Assembly (NCBI GenBank): GCA_022606425.2 | Contig: JAHDVF020000053.1 | Coordinates: 930,001 to 994,000 of the forward strand | Reading direction: 5' to 3' | DNA: 64,000 nt | DNA from: Lepidostoma basale | Taxonomy: Eukaryota; Arthropoda; Insecta; Trichoptera; Lepidostomatidae | In this document: positions 1,012 through 61,690 of the stretch, piece by piece | Position numbering within the stretch: the first letter of the stretch is position 1 | Layout: each line of letters starts with the position of its first letter | Translations under genes and position numbers: made by a program | The notes under the pieces: generated by a model | What the model was told of the DNA's origin: nothing | Seen by the model: the letters and a program-made list of their open reading frames with translations, nothing else | Database searches by the model: none

Positions 1012-1180
1012 GATTACATAATTAAAACGTCTGTTTTCTAGAAGTTTAATTATATTTTGTGTGAATGACATGTTTCGCCTGTCTAAGTTTGAAAATGCCT
1101 AAGACAGGCGAAACATGTCTTTCACATAAAATATAATAAAGCTCTTAGAAAACAAAGGTTTTCATTTGTATTAATTATTC
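1012..1180. repeat. HF-A foldback element with hammerhead-like arms
   Basis: Two inverted arms meet near 1088. Each arm holds the AGGCGAAACATGTC block in opposite orientation, followed outward by ATAAAATATAATAAA and then AAAACGT. The same arms occur in at least seven other places in the window, so this is a dispersed family. The plus-strand arm (about 1088-1119) folds as a GCCT/AGGC stem followed by GAAAC, AT and GTC. Its left box reads TTGAAAA rather than CTGANGA, so it is a degraded hammerhead-like motif. Confidence 0.7.
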
Positions 1181-1353
1181 AATATGAAATCCATAATATC
1201 TTAAGAAACAATAAAATACTTAATTCAATTAATCTATTCTTTTGGCCGAAATACGTACTATGATATTTCCACATTATCAAATATTTAAATTAAAGAGAGT
1301 ATTTTTATTTGTATCACAATTTAATGTTATAAAAAATATTACACATTAAAAGT

Positions 1354-2472
1354 ATTGACACCTTCAACTTGTTTATTGACTTCAAAGCGGCCTATGACAG
1401 CATAAATAGAAAAGAACTGTATAAAGCAATGTCCGAATTGAATATACCAAATAAGCTGATACGACTTGTAAGAGCAACAATGAGCCCAACCATAACCAAA
1501 GTAAGAATCGACAAAGACCTCTCAAAACCATTCCAGACATATAATGGCCTTCGACAGGGAGATGCCTTGGCATGTCTCCTATTTAACGTGGCTCTAGAAA
1601 AAGTTATAAGGGACTCAAAAATAGATACCAGAGGCACTATATTCTACAAGTCAGTTCAACTACTCGCTTATGCAGATGACATAGATATTGTGGGACGGTC
1701 ACTTGAAGCTACCCGTGAAGCGTTTGTAGCATTGGAGGAAAAAGCAAAAATAATGGGACTTGTCATAAATGAAGATAAAACAAAATTGATGATTGCTTCT
1801 AATACCACATATCCATACCCCCAGGTTTTCTCAGCTGCAAATTACAACTTTGAAATAATTAATTCATTTACATACTTAGGCTCAACAGTTACCAGTGATA
1901 ATAACACCCGAGAAGAAATTGACAGAAGGATAATGGCAGCAAACCGATGTTACTACGCTCTCCAAAAACAGTTAAGATCCAAATTACTGCGAAGAACCAC
2001 AAAAACACTATTGTACAAGACCCTGATCAAACCAGTCCTCACATATGCCTCTGAAACCTGGGTGATGACAAAACACACTGAAAGGTCCATCGCAGCATTT
2101 GAAAGAAGGGTTCTTAGGACAATATATGGCCCAGTGAGAGACCACAATGGTTGGCGTCGTCGATATAACCGAGAGCTATATGATATCTATAAAGAGCCCG
2201 ATGTGATCAGATCCGTCAAAGTAGGGCGCCTGAGATGGGCTGGTCACATAATCAGAATGGACGACGACAACCCTACAAAACGCCTCACGCTCTCAGTACC
2301 ACAGGGACGTAGAAGACCAGGAAGGCCCAAAATGCGATGGATGGACAGTGTCAACACGGATGCATCGGTGTTGCAAATAAGAAATTGGAGAATGGGGGCA
2401 TCAAACAGACAAGAATGGAGGAAGCTCCTGGATTCAGCCAAGGCCCACCCAGGGCTCTCGAGCTTAGGATGA
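1354..2472 (+). pseudogene. 5'-truncated LINE ORF2: reverse transcriptase to C-terminus
   Basis: An open frame of about 370 codons starts inside the reverse transcriptase, with no methionine of its own. RT motif A (FIDFKAAYDS) is at its very start, NGLRQGDALACLLFN is at about residues 59-73 and the catalytic YADD is at 101-104. After that come the YLGSTVTSD block, a TYASETW block and the C-terminal GRRRPGRPKMRW segment. The stop codon lies in a run of GAT repeats (2470-2480), which is probably the element's 3' tail. The intact frame and YADD suggest a fairly recent 5'-truncated insertion. Endonuclease and most of the fingers domain are absent. The protein is RTE-related or from a similar clade. 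Confidence 0.85.
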
Positions 2473-2480
2473 TGATGATG

Positions 2481-4985
2481 AAAAGTATAACATTTAAAAT
2501 GTAATTTTTACCAAAAACAATCTACGAGTGTGTAATGGAAATATCGATAAATAACGACGTAAGTATTTAGTAAAAATATCAATTTAATTAATTATCATTT
2601 TAAATGAACTTCCATCAAGAGAAGACAGTAAAATCATTTGAATATTTGTGTTTTGCAATAATCATTTTATGAATGTTTCTTTTTTTCAACAACATTGTAG
2701 ATTCTGGCCTATAGAACATGTTCAGAGATTAATGCTTCTACTAGGAATATTCAGTCCTCGCATCTGGGTACCAGACGAGCATTCACTTGGAAATGTAATT
2801 AGTTGAAGTTAGCTGGAGGTGAAACGTGAACGCGACCGTAGTGCAGTGATATTGACAATTAAGCTCCACCCCTGCATCATTCAAGGGGTTGCGAACATCT
2901 AAATATAGAGATTGAACTGCAAGACACGTATTTATATCTTATTCCGTTTCCTAAGTAATACAATACGATGCTCAAAGGCTTCTTCTTGACACAGAGTCGG
3001 CAAATACATATTTTTTATACAAGTAATTTATATGGTAAAAACCGTGTTACTACCCTAAAGATGAAGACTGCAACGTTCTCCGAAACGTCGGTCCAGAAAG
3101 ACGAGTTATACGGATTTTTCCAAGATCACAAAAACATATTGTTACCAACCGTGAAAATCTATGCAATTAAGTAATTCATAATAGTAATCAAATTTGAATA
3201 AAATAAGCAAGTACTTTCGAATGTTTCGATCATACCTTTTTTATTGTAACACATCCATAATACATAGATATATTCGCTAAAGAACTGATTGATAGAAAAA
3301 CATTTCTGTGAATGCATAAAAAATAACCTGATTTATACTTTTCAAAACAGAATTGTAAAAAATTTCCACTCAGGGTTTTATTAATTCTCAAAAAATTATT
3401 CGGAATTAAATATTTATCAAATTCAACGAAGGTTTCCAAGATAAATTACAAATTATTGTAACTATTGATAATGTTTACTAAATATTGTTATGTTTTTCTC
3501 GAATTTTAGCCTTAGTTTAGAGGAAATACATTTTATTTTTTTTTTCAATATGAGGATGAATTCATGTATCACAAAAATGAAATATATTTAACGTTTATAT
3601 AAAAGCCATTTTTGTCATTGTTTTATTATACATAGTAAATGGATTTGAGATGTTTTACTTTGCTAGGACATTATTAAATGTGACAGGCTACTCGTGACAT
3701 GTAATTGTAATGCTCTAGCAAGACACGTTACATCTTAATAATACATTTAAAGTTATAAAAGACTTTTTAAATATTGCTTTTCCTTCGTTAATATTTTAAT
3801 CCTTAATATATTTAATTTTACATTATTGATCCCGATACATTTACATCATTAATTGAATTAAAATTAACCTTAAATATAATAAAACCATACCGTGGTTAAA
3901 TTTGGCTTGTTTTGTTATTTCATATCTATAAAATGTCTACCACAAAGTGAGTACTACATATGAAAATTGAATTTAAATTATGTTATCTAACTATGAGGTA
4001 GTAACTTTGTAATGAACGCCTTGTTTGAAATCCCACTGAAAGCAAATGTCCGCGTGGTAAAGCGATTTTAATTTGTAGAGGGTTCCCCAGTTCGGTCCTA
4101 TTAGTTGTGTGCTTCATCTCCGACTAATTAGACACGTCTCCAGTCCGAGTATCGACTGCGTTGATCCAGCATTCACGTACTAAGCGCACCAACTTGAAGC
4201 CTAGCATGTGCCGGCACTGAGGTCAAACATACGATTATTTGCCGAGGCGTTTGACTTGATCATTCAACTTTGATTCCTCCTCATTCGATCGATTAAGCTT
4301 GGATGCACAAACCCTTACAGCCAGGGCCTTTTCGGTCTGTAAGTTGATAAGTGCTAGTCGAACACAATACTCGTAAAATTAAAAAAATGTTTTTCTTTTG
4401 AAAATTCTTTAAACGTTTTAAGGAAAATATTTTAGTATCAATGTATTACCGTATAGTTTAATCACTTCAGGGAGATAATTTGCAACAGCGTAAGTAACTA
4501 GTTATAGAACGCTATCTGATTGGTTCCTGGGTTTTAGTAGGCGGAGTGTGCGGCATAAGCTTCTAAAATACTCGATTATTAGAAAATTACTACTGTCTCG
4601 AAATTAGGAAAATAAATCAATTTTAATGGCGGAAGAACATGTTTGTGTTTGTGGTTTTGTTTTTGAATTCCAATAACAACACAAATTTGCCACAAAAATA
4701 GAAATTTCTAAACACCATTAGCCGGGACACCAGATATTTGAAATAATTAAAAAATACTTATTCCTTTTAATTTTAACATTGTACAGTATAATTATGTATA
4801 TTAGTCACGTATTTAATAGTTTTTCCACGAAAAGTCAATAAAGAACAAAATAATTCAACGCTATTTATTTTTGATTATTATTATACAATTGAAGCTGATA
4901 GAATTTATATTAAAAAACTAACATCTTTGTTTATTTCAATGTTTGAAAATAAAATATATCTGAAATATTAAAAAAATGTATGTAT
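2481..4985. other. AT-rich intergenic stretch without a gene
   Basis: No open frame here looks like protein. Positions 2590-2642 share a block (AACTTCCATCAAGAGA, then CAGTAAAATCATTTGA) with 39047-39095, so part of it belongs to a dispersed repeat. Around 3056-3095 is a divergent hammerhead-like string (GATGA, a short stem, CCGAAAC, GTCG, GTC). Positions 3893-3965 resemble the right flank of the foldback at 5340-5425. Positions 4080-4330 are somewhat richer in GC but show no frame or RNA structure I recognise. Confidence 0.5.
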
Positions 4986-5022
4986 GTAAAACAAAAAACA
5001 GCGTTATAGTTATTATAATTGA

Positions 5023-5062
5023 TGCCAACTAGTTTCGCTTGGACCCAAGCTTTATCAGAGCA
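5023..5062 (-). ncRNA. Hammerhead-like ribozyme motif, HF-C left arm
   Basis: On the minus strand the order is TGCT, CTGATAA, one extra A, a GCTTGG/CCAAGC stem of 6 bp with a GT loop, GAAAC, TA, GTT and GGCA. TGCT pairs with GGCA (one G-U) as stem I. The canonical box is CTGANGA, so the G at position 8 is replaced by A, and a lone A separates the box from stem II. The architecture is that of a minimal type I hammerhead. The changed core makes activity doubtful. Confidence 0.55.
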
Positions 5063-5098
5063 GTACAACACCTTTTTTTTTTTCTAAAAAAAGACTAA

Positions 5099-5262
5099 TA
5101 CCAAGGATTTTAATCAATGATATTAGAATTTATTTTACAATCTTCATTTTGAGCAGAAAATGGCTCATTATTATGAAGAAGGAATCTGGTCGTGTCCAGG
5201 CTTGAACCCATGTCCCCTGGATCAGGAGCCAAGCGTTCTATCCCCTAGACCACCACCCGATT
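5099..5262 (-). repeat. tRNA-derived SINE (family S1), copy 1
   Basis: Reading on the minus strand from 5262, box A (TGGTCTAGGGGATAGAACG) and box B (GGGTTCAAGCC) of an RNA polymerase III promoter are spaced as in a tRNA. A unique body follows (ATTCCTTCTTCATAATAATG), with an A-rich tail at 5072-5098. The same sequence recurs at 10056-10220 and, more diverged, at 27548-27725. It is inserted in the loop of foldback HF-C. Confidence 0.8.
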
Positions 5263-5283
5263 GCAGTTTAACAGTTGTTATAC

Positions 5284-5323
5284 TGCCTTGATGAAGCTTT
5301 GGTCCAAGCGAAACTAGTTGGCA
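5284..5323 (+). ncRNA. Hammerhead-like ribozyme motif, HF-C right arm
   Basis: The order is TGCC, TTGATGA, an extra A, GCTT-TGGTCC-AAGC, GAAAC, TA, GTT, GGCA. Stem I (TGCC/GGCA) pairs perfectly and stem II has 4 bp. The first base of the box is T instead of C, unless the T before GATGA is read as an insertion. The two arms differ in just the positions that would keep or restore pairing, which suggests the RNA fold was once under selection. Confidence 0.55.
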
Positions 5324-5569
5324 TTAATTATAATAACCGTACCGTGGTGAAATACAAAGTTTTTTTTTTATATTTATTTTATATTTTTAAAACATCTTAC
5401 CACAAAGTGAGGGCTTCATATGAAAATGTAAATATTTTTTGCTTTTTGTCTTTATAAAAATAAAATAAAAACAGCTTCTAGTTGTTTTTATAAACGCACT
5501 GTTCTCACACAATTGGAAACAATCTCCCTTGAATGATTGGACTCTAGTATACTGTTAATGGTCAATTAT

Positions 5570-5760
5570 TTTTTTATATTAATGTTTCTCGAACAAAATT
5601 GTAAAACTTCACAATGAAAACGTCTATTTTCTAAAAGTTTTATTTTATTTTATGGGAATGACATGTTTTGCCATTCCATGGCATTATCAAATATTTACAA
5701 AGTACGCGTTCAACATTTGATAATAATAATTTTATTATGTTTTAACTTGATTATAATTTG
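5570..5760. repeat. HF-A foldback element, partial
   Basis: The left arm is intact: AAAACGTCTATTTTCTA, then TTTTATTTTATGGGAATGACATG. On the minus strand it reads TTTGATAA, T, a TGCCAT/ATGGCA stem, CAAAAC, ATGTC, so GAAAC is changed to AAAAC. The right half is mostly replaced by AT-rich sequence, though a second TTTGATAATAATAA string occurs near 5717. Confidence 0.6.
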
Positions 5761-7537: not shown

Positions 7538-7720
7538 TATGATAAACTTGAGGTGAATTCCATAATGACGAATTTTTATGAATTAAATCACTGTTTTTTC
7601 CACATATAAACTGAGAGTTTATATCGTTCTCCTGATGATGAAGGTGTAAGCCTTCGAACATGTCGAGCAAAATAAACTCATAAGTGGAAAAAACAGTGTT
7701 TTAATTCATAAAAATTCGTC
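7538..7720. mobile_element. HF-D foldback element with 12-bp target duplication
   Basis: The element lies between two copies of AAATCAAAGATT (7526-7537 and 7721-7732). Uninterrupted relatives of the host LINE have only one copy of this string, so the repeat is a target-site duplication. Inside, inverted arms (GACGAATTTTTATGAATTAA and its complement, plus a CACTGTTTTTTCCAC block) flank a central hammerhead-like motif. No frame is present, so the element is non-autonomous. A 12-bp duplication fits target-primed reverse transcription better than DNA transposition. Confidence 0.75.
7627..7669 (+). ncRNA. Hammerhead-like ribozyme motif, HF-D
   Basis: The order is TTCTC, CTGATGA, an extra T, GAAGG-TGTAAG-CCTTC, GAAC, AT, GTC, GAGCAA. 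The CTGATGA box is canonical and stem II has 5 perfect pairs. Stem I pairs CTC with GAG. The GAAA box has lost one A (GAAC), which should abolish or weaken cleavage in this copy. Confidence 0.65.
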
Positions 7721-8083
7721 AAATCAAAGATTGAATGTCGGCCACGTGAGGAGTCAGAGAAATCGATGCGCGTGCATGATACGATGTATGAATGTTAAGG
7801 AAGCGAGAGAAATATTTTAGGAAAGAAAAGTGTGGCAGTCCATTTTTTCTGTCTACCTCTTCGGAGAGACGGCGTAATATGTTTTAATTAAATGATTTAA
7901 GTTAACGTTCAGAGATTTATCTGCCAGTAATAATATCGTCAATTTAATTATCTCTAAAATTGATTTCGACAATAATACTACAATGATCTGGTGCATTACG
8001 TTCCTGAAACTATTGAATAAAAAAGGTTGTGGAATGCGGATATTTTTAAAGTAGCAAATTGTTGTTTTAAACATAAACTTTAA

Positions 8084-8364
8084 TACAACATTTTGAATGT
8101 ATACAAATACTTGTAGACGAATACTGGATTTTATTTACCCATTGCGGGTTATCAATTCAAGGATTATAAAATTCATAAAGCGTGCGCTTAACCCAACCAA
8201 TGACAGGTCATAAGTCCTGTAAACACCTCGATCACCATATTCAGTTACCAGTTTGCATCTTCGTCTCTATTGAGAAAAAATTAATCCTTGAATTGATAAC
8301 CCGCAATGGGTAAATAAAATCCAGTATTCGTCTACAAGTATTTGTATACATTCAAAATGTTGTA
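8084..8364. repeat. Long hairpin with 83-bp arms
   Basis: Positions 8084-8166 and 8282-8364 are reverse complements over 83 bases by eye, starting TACAACATTTTG and ending AATTCAAGGATTA. The 115-base loop holds a sequence (ATAAAGCGTGCGCTTAACCC and on) that recurs at 8624-8735. No frame is present. It could be a foldback DNA element or a recent inverted duplication. Confidence 0.85.
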
Positions 8365-8623
8365 TAAAACAAAAACTGGTCCAAGTTAGCATATAAATTA
8401 GAGTGACATTTCCAGGCGTTATCTAGCAGTGCGTTAGTGGCGGTAGCCTTTCACATTGTAGTATAAAGATCCTCTGCTTAATGCTTAAATCTAATCTTCA
8501 TAGATGGCGCATTGAAACTGACATGTGAATTGTGGTGTTGGATATTAACATATATACAACTTCCAAAAATTTGTCAGACATGGTGGTCATAAGAAAGGTA
8601 GAATGGGGAATGTTGTAATTACA

Positions 8624-8735
8624 TAAAGCGTGCGCTTAACCCAACCAATGACAGGTCATAAGTCCTGTAAACACCTCGATCACCATATTCAGTTTCCAGT
8701 TTGCATCTTCGTCTCTTTTGAGATAAAATTAATCC
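8624..8735 (+). repeat. Second copy of the hairpin loop sequence
   Basis: This block repeats the loop of the hairpin at 8084-8364 (loop copy about 8174-8287) in the same orientation with a few substitutions, for example CAGTTACC versus CAGTTTCC. It is followed by CATAAACTTTAATA, the string that also precedes the left hairpin arm (8072-8085). The two copies and the hairpin therefore belong to one rearranged unit. Confidence 0.75.
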
Positions 8736-10055: not shown

Positions 10056-10220
10056 AATCGGGTGGTGGTCTAGGGGGTAGAACGCTTGGCTCCTGATTCA
10101 GGGAACTTGGGTTCGAGCCTGGACACGACCAGATTCCTTCTTCATAATAATGAGCTATTTTCTGCTCACATTGAAGATTGTAAAATAAATTCTAATATCA
10201 TTGATTTAAATCTTTGGTTA
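10056..10220 (+). repeat. tRNA-derived SINE (family S1), copy 2
   Basis: Box A (GGTCTAGGGGGTAGAACG) and box B (GGGTTCGAGCC) are followed by the same body as copy 1. The Gypsy element has inserted about 30 bp past its 3' end. The sequence is close to copy 1, so the family is probably not very old. Confidence 0.8.
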
Positions 10221-13562: not shown

Positions 13563-16500
13563 TTATTGATAATACCTAGCCAAATGAATAGCCCCGAAAA
13601 TCCCTCTAATTTTTGTAGTGTTGGGGTGAAACAATGTGTACGAATTGGAATATGGAGCCGACCCTATCACATACGGGCCTTCGAACAGCAACTCAAACTT
13701 GCTCGTGCGTTTTTTCGTTGCGTTAGATTGAGCAAAGCGTCTGACTTTTACCAAATCGCCAAGCTGGTATTCAACAAGCCGCTTTATTTTCTTAAAGTTC
13801 CTTCTCCTATGAGACGCGCTCTCAATTAAATTTTTCCTTACATTTTCTCTGATTGCATTTATGTCCAGTCTTTGGCTAGGCGTCCTCTTGATGTACTTAT
13901 CCAAGGAGAACGTCCGACTGTTTCCCAAAAATATTTCGTTCGGTGTATAACCCGTACTGCAGTGTACTGTATCATTGTAAACCTTTTCTATATTACTTAC
14001 AATGCTTACCCAAGACGGGTGATTTTCATTACAATACGTTCTAAAATAACGCCCTAATTCCTTATTTACCCTTTCGGTGATATTAGGCCCGGGGTTACGA
14101 ACTGACGTATGCATTATCTTTATCCCCATATGGCGTAACTCGCTTTCCCATTCACGTGACGTAAAGGGAGTACCATTATCGGTAAGTATAGTTTGTATTT
14201 TGATAAGTTTTGTAAAATTTCTCAAACATCTCAAAACCCCGCATGTATTCGCATCTCTTAACACGTACAGCTTCACAAATTTACTAAAGGAATCTTGCAT
14301 TACGAATATGTGTCGCATCCCTCTTACGCCTTTCGGTAATGGTCCATACAAATCAGCCATTATGATTTCTCCCACGTCCCTCGTAATGATCGCCTTCAGG
14401 GGTCCTACTGCAGGCTTATCCGTCTGTTTTGCTAATTGGCAAATTCGACATCGCTTAACTATTTGAGTTATCTCTGACCGCATTTTGGGCCAAAAAAATC
14501 GTCCCCATACTGCCTCTATAGTCTTAAATTTCCCAACATGTCCGATCTCGGCGTGTATATACCGACTTATTTCCCCCGCAAAATCCTTTGGAATAGCCAC
14601 TAACTCATTTTGCCTATGGTTTACATAGTATAAGATTTCCCCCCTCAAGACATAATTTGGTCCGTACTTGTGTACCGATTTCTCGTAAGGTCCATGTTTC
14701 TCATTTTTTTTATAGTTATAAATTTCATTAAGAAAACGATCTTCTCTCTGCCTAATACCAATTTTTGCGATATTTTCCCCAACCTCCATTTCGTTAGCCA
14801 CGGCAAAGGAGGCTACTAAAGGACAATTAATTTTATCTTCCTGTACGTGTACTGCATCATGCGAGTATCTAGAAATTATATCTGGCCCTACATTATCCTT
14901 CCCTTTTATATATTTTACTTGGTAGTCGAACTGATTTAAATAAAGAATCCATCTTGTAACCCTTCCGCTATAAAGTTTCCACCCTTTTAGGAACGTCAAT
15001 GCCTGATGATCTGTTACGATGATTAACTTAACACCACGCAAATAGGTCTCAAACTTGCTGAGTCCGTAAATGATCGCCCAGAGTTCCTGCTCCGATACAG
15101 TCCACTTTAATTCAGCGCCCGACAATCTTTTACTAAAGAATCCTATTACATGGTGGTCCCCGTCGTCGTCAAGCTGGTACAGTTCTCCTCCGATGGCAAG
15201 GCCCGAACTATCGGTTTGCAGATAATACGTTTTATTTGGATCGTGGTGGTAGAGCATCACAGAATCCAGAAACAATGATTTGACATTTTCGAAGCTTTCC
15301 TGTTCAACTTGTGTCCATCTCCAAGACTGATTCTTCTTTAATAAATTGCATAGAGGTACCGTCGATTCTCCGTAGCGGATTACAAACCTCCTATAATAAT
15401 TACACAACCCTAAAAAGGCTCTAACCTGTTTTACCCGCTTGGGCGTAGGGAAATTTTTTATCGTATCAACCTTTGTAGGGTCCATCTGGATACCGTTAGT
15501 AGTTATATAATGCCCTAACATCTGCACTTTTTCATGTAGAAATTGACATTTGGTCAGCCGACACGTCACACCTGCGTATATTAACCTCTGTAAAACCAAT
15601 CCGATATGTTCAATATGTCCCTTCATATCGCTGTCGGTAAAGATTAATAGATCGTCCAGATAATTTACACAGAATTCTCTGACTTCCGGCCCCAATATCA
15701 CGTCCATGGCTCGACTAAAACTTCCTACGGATGTTTTTAACCCTTGCGGTAGGACTTGGTACACATATGACTTTCCGTTGAATACAAACCCCGTATATTT
15801 CCGGCTATTTCTTTCCAATGGTATTTGAAAATACGCATTGTTAAGATCTAATGTTGACATGAACTTGACTCCATGGAATCTCTGTAGGAGTTCTGACGTT
15901 AATGGCGGCTTTTCTACCTCCCCTTGCATTCGGGAATTTAGTTCTCGCGCGTCCAACAGGATTCTAACTGTATTGTCTTTCTTCATCGTATACGTCAACG
16001 GGCTAGCAAACGGGGTGCTTTCCCTTTTTATAACCCCCAAGGTCTCTAATTCATTTATTTGCTCTTCAACCTTCCCACGATAAGCAAACGGAACGGGATA
16101 AGATCTTCTGACAAACGGTGTTTCATCGTTCATTACTATTTTATGCTCATATAAATGGGTCTTACCTGGATATGTCGAAAATCCAGTCTTATTCTTTACC
16201 AACACTCCCGTGAGCCATTTCACAGACTCATTATCTAGTTGCAAATTACTCGTAAATTCCACTATGGCTTCGTTATCCTCACACCGTCCCGATACCCCCA
16301 GCATAGAGATCTCAGCATTGGCACTCACACCTAAATGCCTCTCATTCCTCCATATCCCGGACTTAACAAGAGGTATGCTTACGGTCTGGTCATTTATTTT
16401 TATTATTAATTTCTTCGATTTCGCACAATCAATCACTGCCCGGCGCTCTTCTAGCCAATTGAACCCCAATATTATAGGTCTAACTAGTTTTGGTACAATC

Positions 16501-17942
16501 AAGCACGGCGTGTTGCAAATTATCCCCTCAGTTAGTTTCAGAGGTAGCATCACTAATCTTGAAACCTTCTGGCTCTTTCGTCCTAGAGCTCCTTTTATCT
16601 GCACAGTACTCACCGGAAATATGGGGAAGTCCTTCGCGTTCCGAAATTTATCCTCCCACATCTCTTGCGCTACGCATGTTATTTGGCTACCGGTATCAAT
16701 GAGGCAGAATACAGATATCTCATTTATAAATACATGAATTTCTGGCAGACAAATCACTCCTTCCTCCTCCCCTTCTTGTTCGTATTCTGTATCCTCGAAC
16801 ATAGTATGAAAACCTGCAGCCGTTCTCTGCTCCCCAGCATTATTTCCACGATAGCCAATAGACCGACCTTTCCTCTGTAATACGTTAATGATGCCTTTTA
16901 TTGGAGGTAATTTATTTTTTTGATACCCCAAGCCGTGCATACCATCGTTGCCTCTCTGTCTAACAGGTACCCTGATCCCTTGATTATCCTTACCTAACCC
17001 CTGTCCCGGCGACCAAGAGCTCCTCAACATTATTTTTAACGCTACATTACCTACTAATTTAAAATTACCTTGGTCATCAAAGCGTTGGGCCACGCAAACA
17101 ACCCCATTACCACCATCCTCGGAGCTCATTTGTTCATCGATTCCCTCCAATGACTTGTCATTTTCTACCAGTTCCATTGCGTTCACTTCCTCTCCCCTCT
17201 TCCATCCTCGCTTAGCTGGAGATGGTGCAAACACCTTGGGCCGCTTAGTCGTCACCACGCTATCCTGACGTAACAAAAACTCAGTGGCTTCTCTGGCCGT
17301 CTCCAGACCCAGAGCCACCCAAATCGACTGGACGTTCGTAGGGAAATGTCGCATAATTGTCCCTACATACAGTTTTTCCATTGGAGCTTCGTCAATAGAC
17401 TGCGCTATATCCCAATAGTACGTAAAATGCTCCCTCATACTCCGTCCGCTATCCGCCTCCCAAACCGCGTTATAAAGTAGGTCGCGATACCTATCCCTCA
17501 CGATCCTTCCCCAATAACACTCCTTGAATGCCGTTTCGAACTCCTCGAAACTGTCCCAGCTCGTAGAGTATACCCTCGCCCACTTCTCGGCGTCTCCGGT
17601 TAAGCAATTCTCAACTAACTCCTTCCAGTTCCCCTCCCCTTCTCTCCTCACGACCGTTTTCAGCTCCTTCAGAAAAGCCAGAGGGTTCCCTTTTCCGGAG
17701 AACTTAGGATTCTCCACAGCCTTGTAGACCCGCAGTGTTCTCACGTTATCACTCACTCTCGAATGAGATGTGGACGCCAGTGGTTCGGTCTCCTCCACAC
17801 CTCTCTTCTTCATCTCCTGTAGCATTGGCACCGCCAACTCCAAAAAGTTCCCCATCATCTCCTCAATCCTCTTGTAGGACTTGGGACCGTACGTTTTCTT
17901 CCTGATCGCCTTCTTCGCGCAGCGCCCCTTTGTCCCAGACAT
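13563..17942 (-). CDS. Gag-Pol polyprotein of Ty3/gypsy retrotransposon
   Basis: A single uninterrupted frame of 1459 codons encodes all enzymes for reverse transcription and integration in virus-like particles. Domains in order: a Ty3-type Gag/capsid segment (about 80-225, with LTGDAEKWA and FKECYWG); a G-patch-like segment (about 304-342, glycines in SPGQGLGK, QGIRVPV and HGLGY); protease (DTGS at 416-419); reverse transcriptase (LDLNNAYF around D699, YLDD at 761-764); RNase H (D911, E953, D978); integrase with an H1130-H1135-C1165-C1168 zinc finger and the D1197, D1255, E1290 triad; and a GPY/F-type C-terminus (FEGPYVI, about 1420-1426). No CCHC zinc knuckle is visible in Gag. No frameshift separates gag and pol. 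Every catalytic residue I looked for is present, so the element may be active. The start is the first ATG of the frame. Confidence 0.95.
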   Translation of the reverse strand: MSGTKGRCAKKAIRKKTYGPKSYKRIEEMMGNFLELAVPMLQEMKKRGVEETEPLASTSHSRVSDNVRTLRVYKAVENPKFSGKGNPLAFLKELKTVVRREGEGNWKELVENCLTGDAEKWARVYSTSWDSFEEFETAFKECYWGRIVRDRYRDLLYNAVWEADSGRSMREHFTYYWDIAQSIDEAPMEKLYVGTIMRHFPTNVQSIWVALGLETAREATEFLLRQDSVVTTKRPKVFAPSPAKRGWKRGEEVNAMELVENDKSLEGIDEQMSSEDGGNGVVCVAQRFDDQGNFKLVGNVALKIMLRSSWSPGQGLGKDNQGIRVPVRQRGNDGMHGLGYQKNKLPPIKGIINVLQRKGRSIGYRGNNAGEQRTAAGFHTMFEDTEYEQEGEEEGVICLPEIHVFINEISVFCLIDTGSQITCVAQEMWEDKFRNAKDFPIFPVSTVQIKGALGRKSQKVSRLVMLPLKLTEGIICNTPCLIVPKLVRPIILGFNWLEERRAVIDCAKSKKLIIKINDQTVSIPLVKSGIWRNERHLGVSANAEISMLGVSGRCEDNEAIVEFTSNLQLDNESVKWLTGVLVKNKTGFSTYPGKTHLYEHKIVMNDETPFVRRSYPVPFAYRGKVEEQINELETLGVIKRESTPFASPLTYTMKKDNTVRILLDARELNSRMQGEVEKPPLTSELLQRFHGVKFMSTLDLNNAYFQIPLERNSRKYTGFVFNGKSYVYQVLPQGLKTSVGSFSRAMDVILGPEVREFCVNYLDDLLIFTDSDMKGHIEHIGLVLQRLIYAGVTCRLTKCQFLHEKVQMLGHYITTNGIQMDPTKVDTIKNFPTPKRVKQVRAFLGLCNYYRRFVIRYGESTVPLCNLLKKNQSWRWTQVEQESFENVKSLFLDSVMLYHHDPNKTYYLQTDSSGLAIGGELYQLDDDGDHHVIGFFSKRLSGAELKWTVSEQELWAIIYGLSKFETYLRGVKLIIVTDHQALTFLKGWKLYSGRVTRWILYLNQFDYQVKYIKGKDNVGPDIISRYSHDAVHVQEDKINCPLVASFAVANEMEVGENIAKIGIRQREDRFLNEIYNYKKNEKHGPYEKSVHKYGPNYVLRGEILYYVNHRQNELVAIPKDFAGEISRYIHAEIGHVGKFKTIEAVWGRFFWPKMRSEITQIVKRCRICQLAKQTDKPAVGPLKAIITRDVGEIIMADLYGPLPKGVRGMRHIFVMQDSFSKFVKLYVLRDANTCGVLRCLRNFTKLIKIQTILTDNGTPFTSREWESELRHMGIKIMHTSVRNPGPNITERVNKELGRYFRTYCNENHPSWVSIVSNIEKVYNDTVHCSTGYTPNEIFLGNSRTFSLDKYIKRTPSQRLDINAIRENVRKNLIESASHRRRNFKKIKRLVEYQLGDLVKVRRFAQSNATKKRTSKFELLFEGPYVIGSAPYSNSYTLFHPNTTKIRGIFGAIHLARYYQ
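16908..17042 (-). other. G-patch-like domain between Gag and protease
   Basis: Residues 301-345 of the polyprotein carry the glycine spacing of a G-patch (SWSPGQGLGK, then NQGIRVPV, then HGLGYQK). G-patches bind RNA or RNA helicases and occur downstream of the protease in betaretroviruses. Here the domain lies upstream of DTGS and seems to take the place of the missing CCHC knuckle. The functional replacement is inference. Confidence 0.75.
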
Positions 17943-20900
17943 TATTTTCGATATAGTTTTCCCTCGTGTCGAACCGGTGTCTGTAAAATATCGTAGCGGA
18001 CCTTGTTTTCTCCCCCCTTTTGTTTCCTAACCTGTAAAGTTAAATTCAACTATAAGGCTTCCTCCTTATGACTTAACACCTATTTCGATTGCAAACTCGC
18101 CCTTAAGCGAACTTAGATTCGATATAAACTACGCTCATTATAACGTCAACGTACCCCCCTAAGAATTTTCTCATCACTACGATTGATAATTAGTTCTGCT
18201 GCTTTAGACATTATTTACAATTTGATAATACGTCTCGATCGATTGAACGTTCCCTAAAAGAATAACATCAAGCTCCTAAGAATAAATACAATAAATAACG
18301 TAGATTATTTTTGAAAAGATATATACGCACGGTGTTAATTAAAGAAGTCGAGAAAGTCGGAAGAAAGCGTGACGCGATCAAATCAATAAAACCAAAAGGA
18401 GTTCCATTAGAAGTCGGAGCCATCGACGAGCGTCCGCTCCACGAAATACGAATGTAGAATCTCCGCAAAACATAACTGTAGAATGTTGCGGCTATCTGTT
18501 GTTAAGTAACCTAATAATTCACTGGATTTCAGAAGAAATCTATTATATATATATCGATGATATATGGCCCTTATTTTTGACGACTGCGAAAGTATTTATT
18601 AATTTTATAAATTCCGATTTTTTTTTTTTTTTTTGGCACACCTAATTATGTTGGGATATATGTAAGTGACCTATAACCGGCTGCAATTGAAACCTGAAAT
18701 ACCTATACCTAACCATCATAGCTTATTATCGATATTTTTATTTATATTAAACCTTATAATTATCTTACTCATATATTTTTAATTTCCTATTGTATGTTTA
18801 TGTATTATAATACCTACTCATCCGGATTTTCACACCTAGTCTTAGACTTATGTTAAAACTACGATTAAGTTACAATACTTTATGAAAATATACAGTTAAG
18901 CGATAAATTCAGATTTAAACGAAATCATCTTTAAATGCTAACATATTATACTACTTCGGTTGATCTCCGTAATTGTTTATTCGACAATTTATATAATTAT
19001 TATAATTTTATAAGCATTATCCTATATTCCTTTTGAAATAAAACGTATTTGTATTTATGCATTCCACAATAATTGAGAATCATACTGAACTAACCTATGG
19101 GTATGCCGCTCCATTTTGTTAAATATTATTCTAAAGTATCAAAAAGTATCTTAATTTTTTTTCGTACAATTTTAGTATCGTCCTCGAACCTGTAATAATT
19201 TCACAAATGCATGTCACATCGCCGTTCATTTCCTAGTATTTGTTATCGTGAACCCAACCCATGGCGACCTAAAACAACACCAGCTTGGCGAGATACTTGA
19301 TCCATAGGGAGAATTCCATGAAATGCCAGCCTACAGAATACCAACTTGACACTATTGAAAAATTATCACCTATTAACAAACCGTTCAGAATTTCATCCTC
19401 CGCTTCATTATTTTAACAAGTCCCAACATCCGCCATAAATAACTCTATCTCCTTAAGATTTAAGCCCGACACATAGCCTAGAAACTTAAGAACTTTTTTT
19501 TTTCCATCCGAAATTATTTAACGGCTAAAATTGTCGACACTTTAAAATTCACAAAATTTAACGATATCTTTAAGTGGTCTCCTCGGTATCTCTAGGGTAT
19601 CTCAGACCGCAACGTCCTAATATCCGACTGCAATTCGATTCATTTAAAATATAATATTTTATTTTCCGCTTCGTAGATATTCACCTAAATTCTAACTTGC
19701 TGCAATTAATAATGATCAACTAACTAACTAACCATCACGCCGTCTCCCTGAAAGGGCAGGCATAAAGGGTGGACCGTCACACTCTAACCGATGCGGCACT
19801 CAATCCTTCTCTTTTCGCTCCGCGGGAGACGCGGAATGATGGGTTGCGAACCTCATCGCCACCAATAGGCATCTCCCAAATCAATAATATTTATTTCGCA
19901 TAATTGACACATCTGTATTTTAATTTACGATGGAAGTAACCTAAACTCTTATTATTACTGATTTAATCATTACTCGCAATTCTGTTTTATATAATTAGCA
20001 CGTCTGTATTTCAACTTCGCAATGTACATAACTTAAAATTATTATCGATGACCTATTGCTCATACGTAGAACATAAAGACATTAAATATAAATTTTGTAA
20101 ACTAGCCATTATAAAATATATATCCTATCCTATTCCGTATTCATAAACTATTATAATTATATATTTAACTAAAATTACCGAGCTATGTCCTTCCTTTACT
20201 GGGACAGTCGAAATCCAAGTACATATTATTATACATGGCCAATAAATGATTAAATATTTTAGAAACGACCCATTTATTTATCACTTTCGTTATAGATAAT
20301 ATTATTTACATCCCCCTAACAAGCAAAATTGCTACAGCGACCTAACCGACCGCGATCCCTAGAAATATCCTGATGTAAACACTTGACTCGAACTAATTTA
20401 TGGTTATTTTGGTGTGAAAGAAATTAATGTGTACCTATCCAGGATTATGGAAAAATACAGACCAAGAAGAGCGTTATTGACTCAAGACACATGTTTGCCA
20501 TTTAAGATCTCTCGCTGCAGTTTTTAGAAGAATGAGAAAAAACGTAGGTGGTACCAAACCTTTTTACACACTACATTTACGAAATAACCATATCTCTCGA
20601 TATTACTAATTCCCAATATTTTAAGTATGAATTCAATCTCGTCACGATCATACCTCTTAACTAACTTAAATACTATATTCTACTCTAAGCATACTAATAA
20701 TAGCGGGGCCCTTAAAAGTTTATTTTACAAATATGCTAATTCGGAACATAATCACAATATTTATTTATTTATTTAGCGTACTCTCAAATGTTTGATTAGA
20801 ATATACATGAGTCTATAACACAATGAATATTTTAATGGTGACCTTAGTCGATCTAAAATATACGATTAACCTGTCAATAATTTAATATAATTTAAAGATT

Positions 20901-31499: not shown

Positions 31500-31652
31500 T
31501 TCGCCATACTTTGTATTGTAGATGTCTTATTTGTCTTTTTCATTTTTATATACTTTGTATATACAACACTAATTAAAAAAAAAAATTAAATATCAGATAT
31601 GTTTCGGACAACCAGGTCCTTCCTCAGCTAAATTCTAAAGATATTTAAAATA
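31500..31652. repeat. HF-B foldback half, left of the mariner insertion
   Basis: It starts with TTCGCCATACTTTGTATTG and runs through CTTTGTATATACAACAC and the ribozyme-like region to ATTTAAAATA, where mariner begins. After the mariner (32926 onward) the HF-B sequence resumes with TTATAAAATG and GACAGATGTTATGAAG, as in the intact copy at 41417-42018. Confidence 0.75.
31591..31632 (-). ncRNA. Hammerhead-like ribozyme motif, HF-B copy
   Basis: On the minus strand the order is CTGAGGA (canonical), an extra A, GGAC-CTGGTT-GTCC, GAAAC, AT, ATC, TGATA. The core boxes are intact. The stem I left strand is degraded (TTTAG where TATCA would pair with TGATA). Confidence 0.65.
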
Positions 31653-38467: not shown

Positions 38468-38765
38468 CTTTTATTTTTAATTTTATTTTTTATATACTTT
38501 GTATAAACAACACTAACTTGAAAAAAAATTAAGTATCAGATGTGTTTCGGACAACAGGACCTTCCTCAGTGATATTATAAAGATACATATTTAAAACATT
38601 TTTTTTTTTAACAAATATGATCAGTTTTGACAGATGTTATAAAGATTTATTTTGGAACATTTATGCTTTGTTATAACGAATATTATGAATCAATTTAAAA
38701 TTTAAAATAATAATGTAAAGTTCTTATTGGGGTTCAGGTTATAACGGGTACTTACAACAAAGGAT
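38468..38765 (-). repeat. HF-B element, half copy
   Basis: It matches one arm of 41417-42018: TTTATATACTTTGTATAAAC, the ribozyme-like region, GACAGATGTTATAAAG, TATTTTGGAACATTTATGC and the centre GTTCTTATTGGGGTTCAGG. The second arm is absent, so this is a single-arm form. Confidence 0.75.
38534..38574 (-). ncRNA. Best-preserved hammerhead-like ribozyme, HF-B
   Basis: On the minus strand: TATCA, CTGAGGA, an extra A, GGTCC-TGTT-GTCC, GAAAC, AC, ATC, TGATA. The CTGANGA and GAAA boxes are both canonical. Stem I (TATCA/TGATA) has 5 perfect pairs, stem II about 4. ATC satisfies the NUH cleavage rule, with cleavage expected after its C; stem III is reduced to one pair. The extra A between the box and stem II is the only consistent departure and is shared by all families here. 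Confidence 0.7.
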
Positions 38766-38909: not shown

Positions 38910-39040
38910 TTTAATAAAACGATGTTCGACAGCGACCGGTTTCGCCAGGCTCGCTGGTATGGCAGAACTGGCGAAACCGGTCGCTGTCGAAATAAAAACA
39001 AAAGTGGAAGTAGTTAAAAAAAACATCGTTTTATTTAATT
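38910..39040. repeat. HF-G foldback element
   Basis: Perfect 24-bp inner arms at 38925-38948 and 38968-38991 (centre CGACCGGTTTCGCCAG) lie inside weaker outer arms (AATAAAACGATGT and its complement at 39024-39036). GAAAC-CG-GTC-GC is present on both strands. The left ribozyme box is not recognisable as CTGANGA. Confidence 0.7.
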
Positions 39041-39639
39041 ATTATTTAAAATGAACTTCCATCAAGAGATTTCAGTAAAATCATTTGATTATTAAAAAAA
39101 ATATTTATAAACATGTTTTACTTTAGATTATTTTTTATACATTTCTTAAAGATTAATTAAATTATCACAAACACCACTGGAAATCGATTATACAATTAGA
39201 TATTTGTACACATAACTACCTGTTTTTATATGTTCAAAGTAACGGCATTTTTTATATGAACAGATTTATAAAAAATGATTTATTTGCCTTGAAAACATGA
39301 CAATTAGCATTCATTATTTTGCGGAGAGGTTTTATTAGATTCAGTCAGGCAAGGTTCATTAGTCTGGCACACACACAAATGCTAATCACCGGTGGAAGAG
39401 AGTGAACTTCTTAATTATCAATTGAATAAACCCATAAATCATTAATACGTAGAAAGATTTATTGCATTATACAAATCAACAGGTAATAATTCGTTCTAAT
39501 TAACCAGCCACGACAAGATATTTTATGATTAAGAGCGTCAGATGACACGTTTCTTCCGCGATAGGCGAATAAGAATTGAATACAAAACGTTTTTTGATAA
39601 AACTTAAGTTTATATTGAAAATTAAGTTTATATTGAATG

Positions 39640-39740
39640 CAGTTTAAATTGAAACCTGTAGATGGAAGCCTCTGTAGCTTCCGAAACTAGTCGTGTAAAA
39701 TATAATACTCAAGTGGTGAAAAACAAGTGTTTTATTTACA
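39640..39740 (+). repeat. HF-H element with a hammerhead-like motif
   Basis: A single arm reads through the motif at 39652-39696 and on to TGTAAAATATAATAC, CAAGTGGTGAAAAACAAGTG. This tail layout (AT-rich, GTGGTGAAA) is like the outer part of HF-C. Confidence 0.6.
39652..39696 (+). ncRNA. Hammerhead-like ribozyme motif, HF-H
   Basis: The order is AAAC, CTGTAGA, an extra T, GGAAGC-CTCTGTA-GCTTCC, GAAAC, TA, GTC, GTGT. Stem II has 6 perfect pairs and GAAAC plus GTC are canonical. The left box has two changes in the middle (CTGTAGA). Confidence 0.55.
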
Positions 39741-39864
39741 ATTTAGACATAAGTTTAACTGAAATAGTCCATTGTTTTGGCCGAAACACTATGATACTTT
39801 AACATTATAAACTGTTAAATTAAATTACTTTGTTTTATGTGTCACAAATTAATTTTTATTTTAC

Positions 39865-39908
39865 GCGCCAGCTGTTTCGTCAACCTATATTGACATCATC
39901 AAGTGTTA
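39865..39908 (-). ncRNA. Hammerhead-like ribozyme motif, HF-E left arm
   Basis: On the minus strand: TTGATGA, an extra T, GTCAA-TATAG-GTTGAC, GAAAC, AGCT, GGC. The cleavage triplet is changed from GTC to GGC, so this copy should not cleave there. Confidence 0.5.
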
Positions 39909-39949
39909 CAATAATAAATAAATAAATAAATATTTTTTTGATATATTAT

Positions 39950-39997
39950 TGTAACACCTAATGATGTCAACATAGGTTGACGAAACAGCTGTCACGT
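39950..39997 (+). ncRNA. Hammerhead-like ribozyme motif, HF-E right arm
   Basis: The order is CTAATGA, an extra T, GTCAAC-ATAG-GTTGAC, GAAAC, AGCT, GTC. Stem II has 6 perfect pairs. G5 is changed to A in the left box. Stem I pairing is weak. Confidence 0.55.
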
Positions 39998-40371
39998 AAA
40001 ATAAAAATACAATTGTGATACACAAAACAAAGTTTTTTTATTTAAACAGTTTAACTGAAATAAAATATATCATTATCAAATCTTGTATTTAAAAACTTAT
40101 TATGAAATATATACATGAGAATGACTACAAAGAGAAGACTAAGTTTAACCGTTTTTACTATATAAATACCTATTAAATGACAACTTGTCAATAAGTAAAC
40201 ATATTATTTTTGGCAGCTTTCAAAATGTCCACTTTTTTATAATCAATTAGAAAGCTGATTAATATATTATTTAGATTGTAGCTCTGACGAGGTTTCGACG
40301 GGAGAAAAACCGGCTTCCGAGATGAAGACACTAAGGAAGATAGCAAGCAAAACAATATATCGAATGAGGAA

Positions 40372-41416: not shown

Positions 41417-42018
41417 TATTCCATATACGCCATACTTTGTGTTGTTATGATGGTATCTTTTTCTTTTTCTTTTTTATATACTTTGTATATACAATACTTA
41501 TTATATATAAAAAAATTACATTGACATGTTTCGGACAAACGGTCCTTCTTTAGTAAAAGACACATTTTTAAAAATATTATAAAATTGTTTACATGATCTG
41601 ACAGATGTTATAAAGATTTATTTTGGAACGTTTATGCTTTTGTTGTAACAAATATTATGATTCAATTAAAATTTTCAAATAATAATTTGAAGTTCTAATT
41701 GGGGTTCAGGTAATTACTTACAACAACGGAAATAAATCAATGTTCATTTCCTTTAATGTAAGTAATTACCTGAACCCCAATTAGAACTTTAAATTATTAT
41801 TTAAAATTTTAAATAAACGTTCAACAAAAGCATGAACGTTCCAAAATAAATCTTTATAACATCTGTCAGATCATGTAAACGATTTTATAATATTTTTAAA
41901 AATGTATCTTTACAGGAGAAGGACCGTTTGTCCGAAACATGTCTATGTAATTTTATTTTTTTAATATAAGTGTTGTATATACAAAGTACCTATATAAAAA
42001 AGAAAAAGAGAAATAAAC
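41417..42018. mobile_element. HF-B foldback element, both arms, 9-bp target duplication
   Basis: AAATTTATT flanks both sides (41408-41416 and 42019-42027). Two arms of about 260 bp are reverse complements and meet near 41735-41760. Arm landmarks are TTTGTATATACAA, GACATGTTTCGGACAAACGG, GATCTGACAGATG and CTAATTGGGGTTCAGG. The left end has about 30 extra bases (CGCCATACTTTG) that also begin the other HF-B copies. Each arm has CTAAAGA or CAGGAGA in place of the CTGANGA box, so both ribozyme-like motifs look damaged. Confidence 0.75.
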
Positions 42019-49168: not shown

Positions 49169-49859
49169 CGAGGTCTGTTCAAAAAGTATCGCGAATTTTG
49201 AATTTCCGCTGGCTACGTATATTTGATTTTTGATTTTTTTGTAGCGTTATGTTGGTACTCATGTCCCTTACTTATGCTGACCAAAAAAAGCGCGCCAAGT
49301 TCGGTCGAACGTGAAGGTTTTGCTCACAGTTTTCTTCAATTGCAGGGGCGTGGTGCATCATGAGTTCTTGCCACAGGGTAGTATGGTCAATAAGGAATAT
49401 TACCTGCAAGTTATGCGCAATTTGCGCGAAGCAATCCGCCAGAAACGCCCGGATTTGTGGAAGAACAAAAACTGGCTTTTGCACCATGATAACGCCCCTG
49501 CTCACACATCGTTGCTTGTGCGCGAATATTTGGCCAAAAACAACACAGTAATGGTGCCGCAGCCACCGTATTCCCCATACCTGGCCCCCTGTGACTTTTT
49601 CCTGTTTCCAAAACTGAAGAGGCCCATGAAAGGACGACGCTACGCCACGATTGAGGAGATAAAGACGGCATCGAAGGAGGAGCTGAACAAGATCACAAAA
49701 AATGATTTTTTTAAGTGCTTTGAGGATTGGAAAAAACGTTGGCATAAATGTATTATATCCGAGGGGAATCACTTTGAAGGGGACAAAATAGATATTCATG
49801 AATAAATAAATACTTTTTGAAAAAATATAAAATTCGCGATACTTTTTGAACAGACCTCG
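49169..49859 (+). mobile_element. Mariner-like element of a second family, 691 bp, deleted
   Basis: CGAGGTCTGTTCAAAAAGTA at 49169 and its complement ending at 49859 form TIRs of at least 30 bp with no difference noticed, and TA lies on both sides. About half of the usual 1.3 kb is missing, including the N-terminal DNA-binding region and the first catalytic residue. Confidence 0.92.
49311..49805 (+). pseudogene. C-terminal half of a mariner transposase
   Basis: An open frame holds GVVHHEFLPQGSMVNKEYY, LLHHDNAPAHTSLLVREYLA, PYSPYLAPCDFFLFPKLK and CFEDWKKRWHKCI to the natural end. The second (HHDNAPAH) and third (APCD) catalytic aspartates are present; the first is in the deleted part. The conserved SPDL reads SPYL. 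Confidence 0.88.
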
Positions 49860-50614: not shown

Positions 50615-50790
50615 ATTGTTTTCTATAAGTTTTATTACAATTTATGTGAATGACATGTTTCGCCTGCCGAAGGCATTCTCCTTAGACAGGTGTAACATAT
50701 CATTTTCATAAAATATAATAAAACTTCTAGAAAAAAAAACGTTTTCATTTATAAAAATAATTTATTATGAAGTTTTACATTATTGTTCGA
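50615..50790. repeat. HF-A foldback element
   Basis: Arms are TTTTCTATAAGTTTTATTAC and AAAATATAATAAAACTTCTAG. The minus-strand left arm reads GCCT-TCGGC-AGGC, GAAAC, AT, GTC. The left box is degraded (GGAGAAT). The right end extends into GAAGTTTTACATTATTGTTCGAG, the outer flank also seen at 57660-57690 and 61480. Confidence 0.65.
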
Positions 50791-53790: not shown

Positions 53791-53875
53791 TCAAACCAAT
53801 TTATTTACTTTTTTTACTACCAACCGGTTTCGCACTAGCTGGATCATCGTCAGGGTAACAAAACATAAATTGCGG
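53790..53875 (-). repeat. HF-F half element, cut by a LINE-T insertion
   Basis: ACCAACCGGTTTCGCACTAGC and CATCGTCAGGGTAACAAAAC match one HF-F arm. It stops at AACTAACTAACTAACC, the family T tail in minus orientation. Confidence 0.65.
53818..53857 (-). ncRNA. Hammerhead-like ribozyme motif, HF-F copy
   Basis: The minus strand reads TACC, CTGACGA (canonical), T, a degraded stem II region, GAAAC, CG, GTT, GGTA. Stem I (TACC/GGTA) pairs perfectly. Stem II shows no clean pairing. Confidence 0.5.
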
Positions 53876-60504: not shown

Positions 60505-61005
60505 CCATAAAGGAGTTCAAGTGCCAATTATTATGTATGGAAGTAAAGCTTGGAGTATGAGTATGAGTATGAGTCTGAGTATGAGTATGAGTCCTTTTGA
60601 GTATGAGTCTGTGAAAAGTGTTGTAAAATACAAATGAAATCACCAAGAATAATGTGCATGAAAACGATACATGATAGAATCCCGGACAATAAAACAATGC
60701 AGATAATTGTATCCTAAACAAAATTTAAAAAAAGATCACTTAGATAATTTGCACTTATGGAAAAAATGGATAATAGAAGAAGAGTAAAAATTGTATGCAA
60801 GCAGCGTGAATGGGAAAAGAAGCTGAGGTCGACTGAAAAAAACAAGGCAAAGCTAAATTAATTTATAACTAAAAGGCGGCATAATTCAAAGTAGAAAAAA
60901 TCGACGACCGTGCGTATTACGATGTATGAATTTGAGAAGGCTCGAGTGGTTTGTCAGGATAGATCAGTGTGGCGATCTATCTTCTCTGCCTACCCCTCGT
61001 TTTGT
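60505..61005 (+). pseudogene. LINE family T 3' end with a hexanucleotide expansion
   Basis: GVQVPIIMYGSKAWS is interrupted at 60556-60612 by GAGTATGAGTATGAGT-type repeats. The family then resumes (PRIMCMKTIHDRIPDN, and CQDRSVWRSIFSAYP at the end). The expansion begins inside the codons that normally encode the W-W/SWQK region. Confidence 0.7.
60556..60612 (+). repeat. GAGTAT hexanucleotide microsatellite
   Basis: About nine units of GAGTAT or GAGTCT lie inside a LINE fragment, so the repeat arose or was inserted after the LINE. Confidence 0.85.
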
Positions 61006-61009
61006 TTAT

Positions 61010-61450
61010 ACAATATATTCAATAGATTTGACATGACGTATTATATAAATCATAGTATAGTTAGAATGTATCACAAAAAAATTCGGGTTTATTAAAATAT
61101 TAATATTTTTTAATCATGATAGGTAATTTCAATCAAAATTATATCGAAAAAATTTAATTGAGAAATATAAGTAAATAAGTATTCTTTATTTTTTAAAACA
61201 TCAGTAAGCTTTTAGAGTGCGAAACCTTATACCAAAGTATCTGTAACATTAAACAGGTTTTGGTATTATATTTCCTGGATAAATAAACAAAAAGATGAAA
61301 GCTTTGTACAATATAATATACATTTTATAAAGAATTCCACTTTTAAAATTCACAAATATACTTAAAAAAACACCTTTATTAATTTGAACTTTTCAACATT
61401 ACATTGTTTTACTAAATAATTAAATTTTGTGTATATTTTCGTTTAACAGT
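61010..61450. other. AT-rich stretch, nothing recognised
   Basis: No frame or repeat assigned. Confidence 0.35.
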
Positions 61451-61690
61451 ATTATTTATTGTTTCTTGAACAATGATATAAAACTCCGTATTAAATATTA
61501 AATAAGAATGAAAACGTCTATTTTCTAGATGTTTTATTATAGTGTATTTTATGAGAATGACATGTTTCGCCTTACTAACGTTTTATCAAATGTTTGATGA
61601 TGGGTTATGCCGAAACGCGTCATTCTTATAAAACATAATAAAACATCCAGAAAACAAACGTTTTCATTCGTATTAATTAAAAGTACTACG
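61450..61690. repeat. HF-A foldback element, longest copy
   Basis: The left side starts with the outer flank TATTTATTGTTTCTTGAACAATG, then AAAACTCCGTATTAAATATT and AATGAAAACGTCTATTTTCT. The arms meet near 61595 and both hold GAAAC blocks (complement at 61564-61568; plus 61612-61616, where GTC is changed to CGTC). It is the best template for the HF-A consensus in this window. Confidence 0.75.
61556..61590 (-). ncRNA. Hammerhead-like motif, HF-A
   Basis: The minus strand reads TTGATAA, A, a partial stem (CGTTAGTAAGGC), GAAAC, AT, GTC. In other HF-A copies stem II is GCCTT-AGC-AAGGC. The left box has T at position 3 and A at position 8, which could pair with each other as the canonical C3-G8 do. 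Confidence 0.45.

Follow-up and report, generated by a model that had tools for sequence, protein, structure and literature searches.

Foldback repeats of Lepidostoma basale with a hammerhead-like fold are probably short Penelope-like elements

The foldback repeats described here, from the trichopteran insect Lepidostoma basale, are very probably short non-autonomous Penelope-like elements (PLEs), in which two PLE termini lie head-to-head without an intervening gene and each terminus carries a hammerhead-like fold. They were studied in a window, by which we mean the whole stretch of 64,000 nucleotides analysed (assembly GCA_022606425.2, contig JAHDVF020000053.1, positions 930,001 to 994,000 of the forward strand), and in further loci of the same genome.

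Across otherwise unrelated repeats the same order recurs: a CTGANGA-like box is followed by a single extra base and then by stem II; GAAA comes next, and after it a self-complementary core and T-H. A scan of the window finds the full order at 5058 (−), 5288 (+), 31627 (−), 39656 (+), 39902 (−), 39958 (+) and 41553 (−); damaged motifs lie at 7632 (+), where GAAC is short by one A, at 36603 (−), where the first stem pair is lost, and at 38569 (−), which has a T–T mismatch within the stem. An initial annotation of the window had described the recurrence of box, extra base, stem II and GAAAC, and this order is confirmed, with 12 model matches at E < 1e-3 (see below). Its account of spacers and families needs correction: the box of family A is degraded, the two to four bases after GAAAC are self-complementary and not free, and the copy at 39902 (−) has G where U is expected in stem III.

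The register of the motif is narrow. The count covers 56 instances whose stem II has at least 4 bp, drawn from the window and from 40 loci, every one of them picked up through a fixed spacing of 13 bases; many are copies of family F1. One extra base separates box and stem II in 52 instances, two in four and none in zero; a few 3-bp stems in the register listing are compatible with no extra base. With looser stems (n = 86), one extra base is found in 65 and none in one; one instance is tied between none and one and another between one and two, three have two or three extra bases, and 15 have no 3-bp stem. The canonical hammerhead without an extra base was rejected on these counts (0/56; 1/86 plus one tie). 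In 18 representative copies the extra base is T in nine and A in nine. Genome-wide, the pattern CTGANGA-N13-GAAAC has 1184 matches (609 + 575), the reversed pattern 145 (79 + 66); 51 of the 60 loci around the first listed matches contain a model match at E ≤ 0.01, and nine contain none.

Whether the pattern reflects a structure was assessed with these 18 copies, picked by hand to represent about 13 families, a set that leaves out family A, the family at 3049, L033 and others. The scans behind it demanded the box, stem II and GAAAC, with thresholds relaxed for some; pairing of stems I and III was no criterion, although visual inspection of a few copies had already revealed stem I pairing when the representatives were chosen, and the F12 row, one A short, was kept misaligned. 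In this set the three-stem structure is paired in 90.2% of cells versus 58.6% after shuffling, and the covariation score over stems I–III is 0.757 versus 0.179 ± 0.031, with 0 of 500 shuffles as high; slid-structure controls score 0.08–0.15. Cruder measures are less decisive, as double-change pairs are matched by 259 of 500 shuffles and further pair types by 33 of 500. Stem I is paired in 87.5% of cells and shows double changes at all four pairs. In stem III, C–G is present in 18/18 and A15.1–U16.1 in 17/18, while the middle pair is complementary in 18/18 (AU 11, CG 4, UA 3) and in 93 of 100 of a larger set of model matches. The stem III cores read ACATGT, ACTAGT, ACCGGT or ACAGCTGT, the last U being replaced by C once; because such a palindrome of 6–8 nt has no loop, stem III could presumably form only between two copies.

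A covariance model, R1, built from the 18 representatives finds 12 matches at E < 1e-3 in the window, nine of them absent from the building set; the 60 loci yield 110 (E ≤ 0.01). In 102 distinct R1 rows, whose alignment is fitted to the model, the covariation score is 0.606 versus 0.169 ± 0.014 after shuffling. The hammerhead-like core with covarying stems, claimed in the initial annotation from differing stem II sequences, is thus supported across families, both by the two shuffled comparisons and by the complementary middle pair of stem III.

In the window, the strongest R1 match belongs to the F10 foldback (5009–5337), whose spacer repeat recurs at 10056–10172 and which carries motifs at 5021–5064 (−; 34.7 bits, E 1.6e-8) and 5282–5325 (+; in model A1, 41.3 bits, E 1e-10). 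The F12 foldback (7566–7721; arms 40/42 identical) has a single motif at 7626–7670 (+; in model A1, 37.5 bits, E 2e-9), and an F11 motif lies at 39650–39698 (+; in model A1, 37.4 bits, E 2.1e-9). The two arms of the F4 foldback contain motifs at 39861–39908 (minus arm, −; 29.9 bits, E 6e-7) and 39952–39999 (plus arm, +; 24.7 bits, E 3.1e-5). Family F5, with stem II GGAC/GTCC, is represented at 31590–31633 (−; 20.7 bits, E 6.6e-4), at 38533–38575 with a damaged stem II (−; 26.4 bits, E 8.9e-6) and by a foldback at 41458–42013 (arms 245/263 identical) with motifs at 41517–41559 (−; 22.2 bits, E 2.1e-4) and 41907–41949 (+; 26.4 bits, E 8.7e-6); a degraded F5-like motif is found at 35964–36007 (+; 15.7 bits, E 0.03). 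Two motifs have an ACCGGT core, one of family F3 at 36566–36609 (−; 29.1 bits, E 1.1e-6) and one whose family is not settled at 53816–53859 (−; 26.7 bits, E 6.8e-6). Family A comprises foldbacks at 1008–1177 (weak motif 1089–1125, +; E 0.0073), 50619–50734 (partial motif 50652–50676, −; E 0.016) and 61501–61674 (weak motif 61588–61627, +; E 1.2) and a weak motif at 5654–5696 (−; E 0.011); its matches are weak, with E from 0.007 to 1.2, because the box is degraded. A possible further family with an ACGT stem III core, at 3049–3095 (+; E 0.48), is not significant alone. The window also holds a Ty3/gypsy-like open reading frame, whose best named relatives among the matches listed are from Parnassius, Heliothis and Helicoverpa (Lepidoptera).

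The comparison with hammerhead ribozymes is close and yet inexact. As in type I hammerheads, there is a CUGANGA...GAAA core with stems I and II, with exceptions in F8, F9, F11, F10b and F12 (GAAC); unlike in type I hammerheads, stem II does not follow A9 directly, one extra base intervening, and a palindromic core takes the place of an intramolecular looped stem III. In the available text of PMC3088659, none of the insertions discussed lies between A9 and stem II. The Rfam models, which the initial annotation had proposed for a search, do not recognize the fold: they give no hammerhead in the window at E ≤ 1, nor in 20 loci at E ≤ 10. Other Rfam matches in the window, mostly to microRNA models, are below gathering scores, fit the palindromes and were set aside.

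These departures bear on the most serious alternative, namely that the structure is a non-cleaving site for PLE protein binding or for the start of reverse transcription and resembles a hammerhead in looks only, an explanation that is itself compatible with a PLE origin and that we regard as quite possible, though less probable than not. It draws on the extra base, present before stem II in 18/18 representatives, on core changes (A6 to U in F9 and F11, U4 to A in F8, G5 to U in F10b) and on what the available part of PMC11167929 reports for a PLE of Anolis, where cleavage was seen only with the PLE protein and ribozyme mutants still insert in vitro. Against it stand constraints typical of a hammerhead: in the 110 R1 matches, among which F1 copies dominate, N7 is variable (A 75, T 23, C 8, G 4) while its neighbours are constant in 106, and the position preceding the expected cut holds T in 62, C in 42, G in only three and A in two, with one gap; the A15.1–U16.1 pair, as noted, is nearly universal. 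The Anolis element probably carries the same extra U, judging from the text on the spacing of its start codon and cut: there, the gene starts at stem II and the cut lies 26 nt on (PMC11167929, available part), and in the T-type families here CTGANG-ATG likewise puts an ATG at stem II, with the predicted cut 24–31 nt after its A. The ATG frames of the motif in F1 and F9 stop (by eye) after 9 and 11 codons, so in these copies the motif ATG is apparently not where the PLE gene begins.

A complete foldback probably hides the hammerhead-like fold in its long hairpin, since in predicted folding an intact F1 foldback forms a single hairpin of −182 kcal/mol (z −31.65). Selection on the core after insertion was not seen in F1: divergence between partner arms is 20/260 in the invariant core, 27/520 in the rest of the motif and 103/1560 in the arm (26 rows, none dropped). 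The core thus diverges as fast as the arms, which suggests that nothing protects it once inserted.

The arrangement of the motifs points to PLEs. The 60 loci contain 53 cases of neighbouring R1 matches less than 300 nt apart; 37 of these face each other head-to-head, 12 are arranged tail-to-tail and four share a strand. Measured from where the box starts, F1 arms extend for about 96–104 nt, or for 139–143 nt when tailed, and the tail is homologous between F1 and F2, which links the two families. Five of seven F1 pairs have the tail on one arm only (shortened in L060) and target-site duplications (TSDs) of 13, 12, 9, 14 and 11 bp; of the other two, one is tailless without a TSD and one has an end that could not be placed. 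TSDs of 9–14 bp thus accompany five of six measurable F1 pairs, whereas 30 mismatched pairs of F1 flanks, used as a control, match over at most 8 bp. In the window, the F4 foldback (39753–40061, the insertion itself being 39766–40048), with a tail on the minus arm only, is flanked twice by the 13-bp sequence GTTTAACTGAAAT (39753–39765 and 40049–40061; chance expectation 0.01), a TSD spotted by eye before a search confirmed it. When eight window foldbacks were scanned automatically for TSDs, this one was missed and two others gave candidates of only 7–8 bp, the reason being that arms merge into tails and AT-rich flanks. Family F9 shows head-to-head termini with the tail on the 3′ side. For Penelope, the consulted part of PMC3846280 describes pLTRs that are inverted and head-to-head, one of which may bear a 31-bp tail, together with TSDs of 8–10 bp and junction palindromes.

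This anatomy leaves little room for retrozymes, that is, non-coding repeats in tandem that carry type I hammerheads and spread through circular RNA. The repeats resemble animal retrozymes, as presented in the available text of PMC7229834, in being non-coding, high-copy and type I-like in fold; their neighbours are nevertheless mostly head-to-head (37/53) and rarely on the same strand (4/53), and F1 has a PLE-type tail and TSDs at its arm ends, which makes this explanation very unlikely. The initial annotation had taken the repeats for non-autonomous retroelements that carry, or carried, ribozymes on both strands; its Penelope link, the copies on both strands and the non-autonomous form hold, while its comparison with retrozymes does not survive the strand counts.

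Coding partners support the reading as short non-autonomous PLEs. A genome search for GIY-YIG (PF01541) gave at least 62 matches, a lower bound from scoring 150 of 542 candidates, and the best 30 were fetched. In 23 of these 30 loci a co-oriented R1 motif lies 358–592 nt downstream of the GIY-YIG match, a range chosen after seeing the data and with some of the domain matches partial; by our own arithmetic, the sampled background density of motifs predicts about 2% per GIY-YIG locus. Seventeen of the associations are with F9 and six with F2-like motifs (L093 being weak, 22.1 bits), and they are not independent because the F9 loci partly overlap. Of the other seven loci, L089 is a bacterial uvrC, L091 has a frame length resembling it, L090 is without a motif, and in L098, L099, L103 and L107 the motifs are weak or otherwise placed. 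At L120 a 758-codon frame with RVT_1 and GIY-YIG domains lies between a minus motif (554–598) and a plus motif (3563–3607); the inverted arms that enclose it measure, by eye, roughly 450 bp, and the tail is on the 3′ side. The same domains are found in its relatives, many of which have about 800 aa; Phthorimaea supplies the best named relative of the PLE protein, at 42% identity. An N-terminal block that related PLE proteins possess is, by eye, missing from L119 and L120, which may therefore fall short of full autonomy.

In the window, an F9 foldback with a tail and a partly lost box (38912–39093, extent by eye) matches these loci directly: its plus arm and tail are 93% identical to the reverse transcriptase (RT) and GIY-YIG locus L120 (142 columns) and 96% identical to the GIY-YIG locus L094 (125 columns), and its minus side matches over 47–48 nt at 90%. 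An older F9 arm and tail remnant at 2548–2645 (+) has 80–81% identity to L094 and L120. Penelope RT/GIY-YIG elements with the same ends, anticipated in the initial annotation, therefore exist in this genome: for F9, an RT and GIY-YIG gene lies between the same termini (L120) and most of the 23 associations are of this family, and for the F2-like group the case rests on GIY-YIG plus the downstream motif. Among the best 30 of the at least 62 GIY-YIG loci, the 3′ motif beside the gene is of F9 or F2-like type only, and no coding partner was found for F3, F4, F5, F10–F12 or A; the open reading frame listing of the sampled motif loci contains nothing recognizable as a PLE gene.

The same observations weigh on foldback or MITE-type DNA transposons whose terminal inverted repeats would be hammerhead-like by chance or descent. 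Long terminal inverted repeats in short, non-coding, AT-rich elements would suit such transposons, but the TSDs have no fixed length (9–14 bp in five F1 pairs), the tail is on a single arm, RT/GIY-YIG genes are flanked by F9 and F2-like termini, and stem I and the palindromic stem III covary; a DNA transposon origin is accordingly highly improbable.

To sample the genome, 20 contigs were taken from the pattern-search listing and 2 kb were read from position 500,001 of each, a position chosen without regard to the motif; in these 40 kb R1 gave six matches at E < 0.002. The effective sample is 38 kb because one stretch (L077 on C102) looks bacterial. The density is about one per 5–7 kb, the window having 12 matches at E < 1e-3 in 64 kb. 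Scaled to the assembly of 768.8 Mb, six per 38 kb corresponds to about 121,000 copies (Poisson range about 45,000 to 264,000), and these six sampled matches suggest about 1e5 motif copies per genome. A chance motif in AT-rich palindromes, which pair by construction and in which this motif was picked out by a reader, can be dismissed, given that 0 of 500 shuffles reach the covariation, the slid controls fail, genome matches stand at 1184 versus 145 and matches also occur in stretches chosen without regard to the motif.

For the PLE reading, the following mechanism may be proposed. Each terminus would form stem I, stem II after one extra base and a loopless palindromic stem III of 6–8 nt that pairs only in a dimer, and the putative ribozyme fold would cleave the RNA. 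An RT/GIY-YIG protein encoded by PLEs would recognize the terminus and mobilize the foldbacks in trans. Copying from internal start sites could yield ends with and without the tail, turning back or self-priming could yield the head-to-head palindrome, and insertion would take place at AT-rich sites with variable duplications. In active lineages the fold may be kept as a processing or protein-recognition module, and inserted copies would decay neutrally. A bolder proposal, which we hold tentatively and consider rather unlikely, is a distinct hammerhead subclass with a conserved extra base and a dimer-forcing helix III, dependent on Penelope protein, carried by about 1e5 self-masking foldbacks and invisible to current RNA models. 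If the picture is right, Rfam-based annotation overlooks a ribozyme-like RNA in a repeat that is very common in this genome, and about a dozen natural families with differing stems offer a covariation-based definition of the PLE ribozyme. Protein-assisted dimer action of PLE ribozymes would become directly testable, and a route from gene-less head-to-head PLE termini to short foldback repeats would be suggested.

Terminons are not known to carry GIY-YIG. These PLE relatives have a 3′-end hammerhead, comparable to the hammerhead-like fold of the present repeats, and differ in being giant and telomere-attached, according to the available text of PMC6431247. Closer likenesses are found in Penelope/Poseidon PLEs, with their RT and GIY-YIG gene, inverted termini, optional tail and variable TSD (PMC3846280, PMC11167929 and PMC6155905, each in the part available) and with pLTR hammerheads that are minimal forms lacking a proper helix III (PMC6155905, same part). 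Unlike in the PLEs described, gene-less head-to-head pairs are common here and the extra base was measured in all families compared. Heliconiine butterflies have Penelope elements that are likewise short and non-autonomous, and the available text on them makes no mention of hammerheads (PMC6685494). Animal retrozymes and the newt satellite likewise have type I hammerheads in non-coding repeats, but theirs are tandem direct repeats and those described here head-to-head foldbacks (PMC7229834 and PMC6155905, in the available text); the newt hammerheads act as dimers via an elongated helix III (PMC6155905, available part). In the literature covered, which did not include the 2014 PLE-hammerhead paper that may print the extra base, we found neither gene-less head-to-head hammerhead PLE termini as a high-copy class nor that base. 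Hammerheads and inverted pLTRs are both known from PLEs, and butterflies are known to have short non-autonomous Penelope elements; the ingredients are thus familiar, and it is their combination and the fold variant that appear to be new.

An inverted repeat with 88-nt arms (8079–8166 and 8282–8369), which are 99% complementary and separated by 115 nt, looks very young; by eye, its inner portion occurs a second time at approximately 8626–8730 of the window. A dispersed repeat (5150–5270 and 10056–10172) contains a tRNA-like stretch and, on inspection, looks SINE-like; the former copy sits in the spacer of the F10 foldback (5009–5337).

Contig C102 (1.64 Mb) of the assembly under study (G000) is bacterial in appearance. 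Its locus L089, retrieved in the GIY-YIG search, contains uvrC (TIGR00194 match, 523 bits), and two other loci, L065 and L077, have frames that look bacterial by eye. The contig would appear to derive from a symbiont or a contaminant.

Two plus-strand window ORFs (32140–32847 and 49281–49805) are candidate mariner-type transposases, judging by their motifs. On the minus strand, a Ty3/gypsy-type ORF (13563–18026) is open over 1487 aa and, among the matches listed, has relatives in moths and butterflies.
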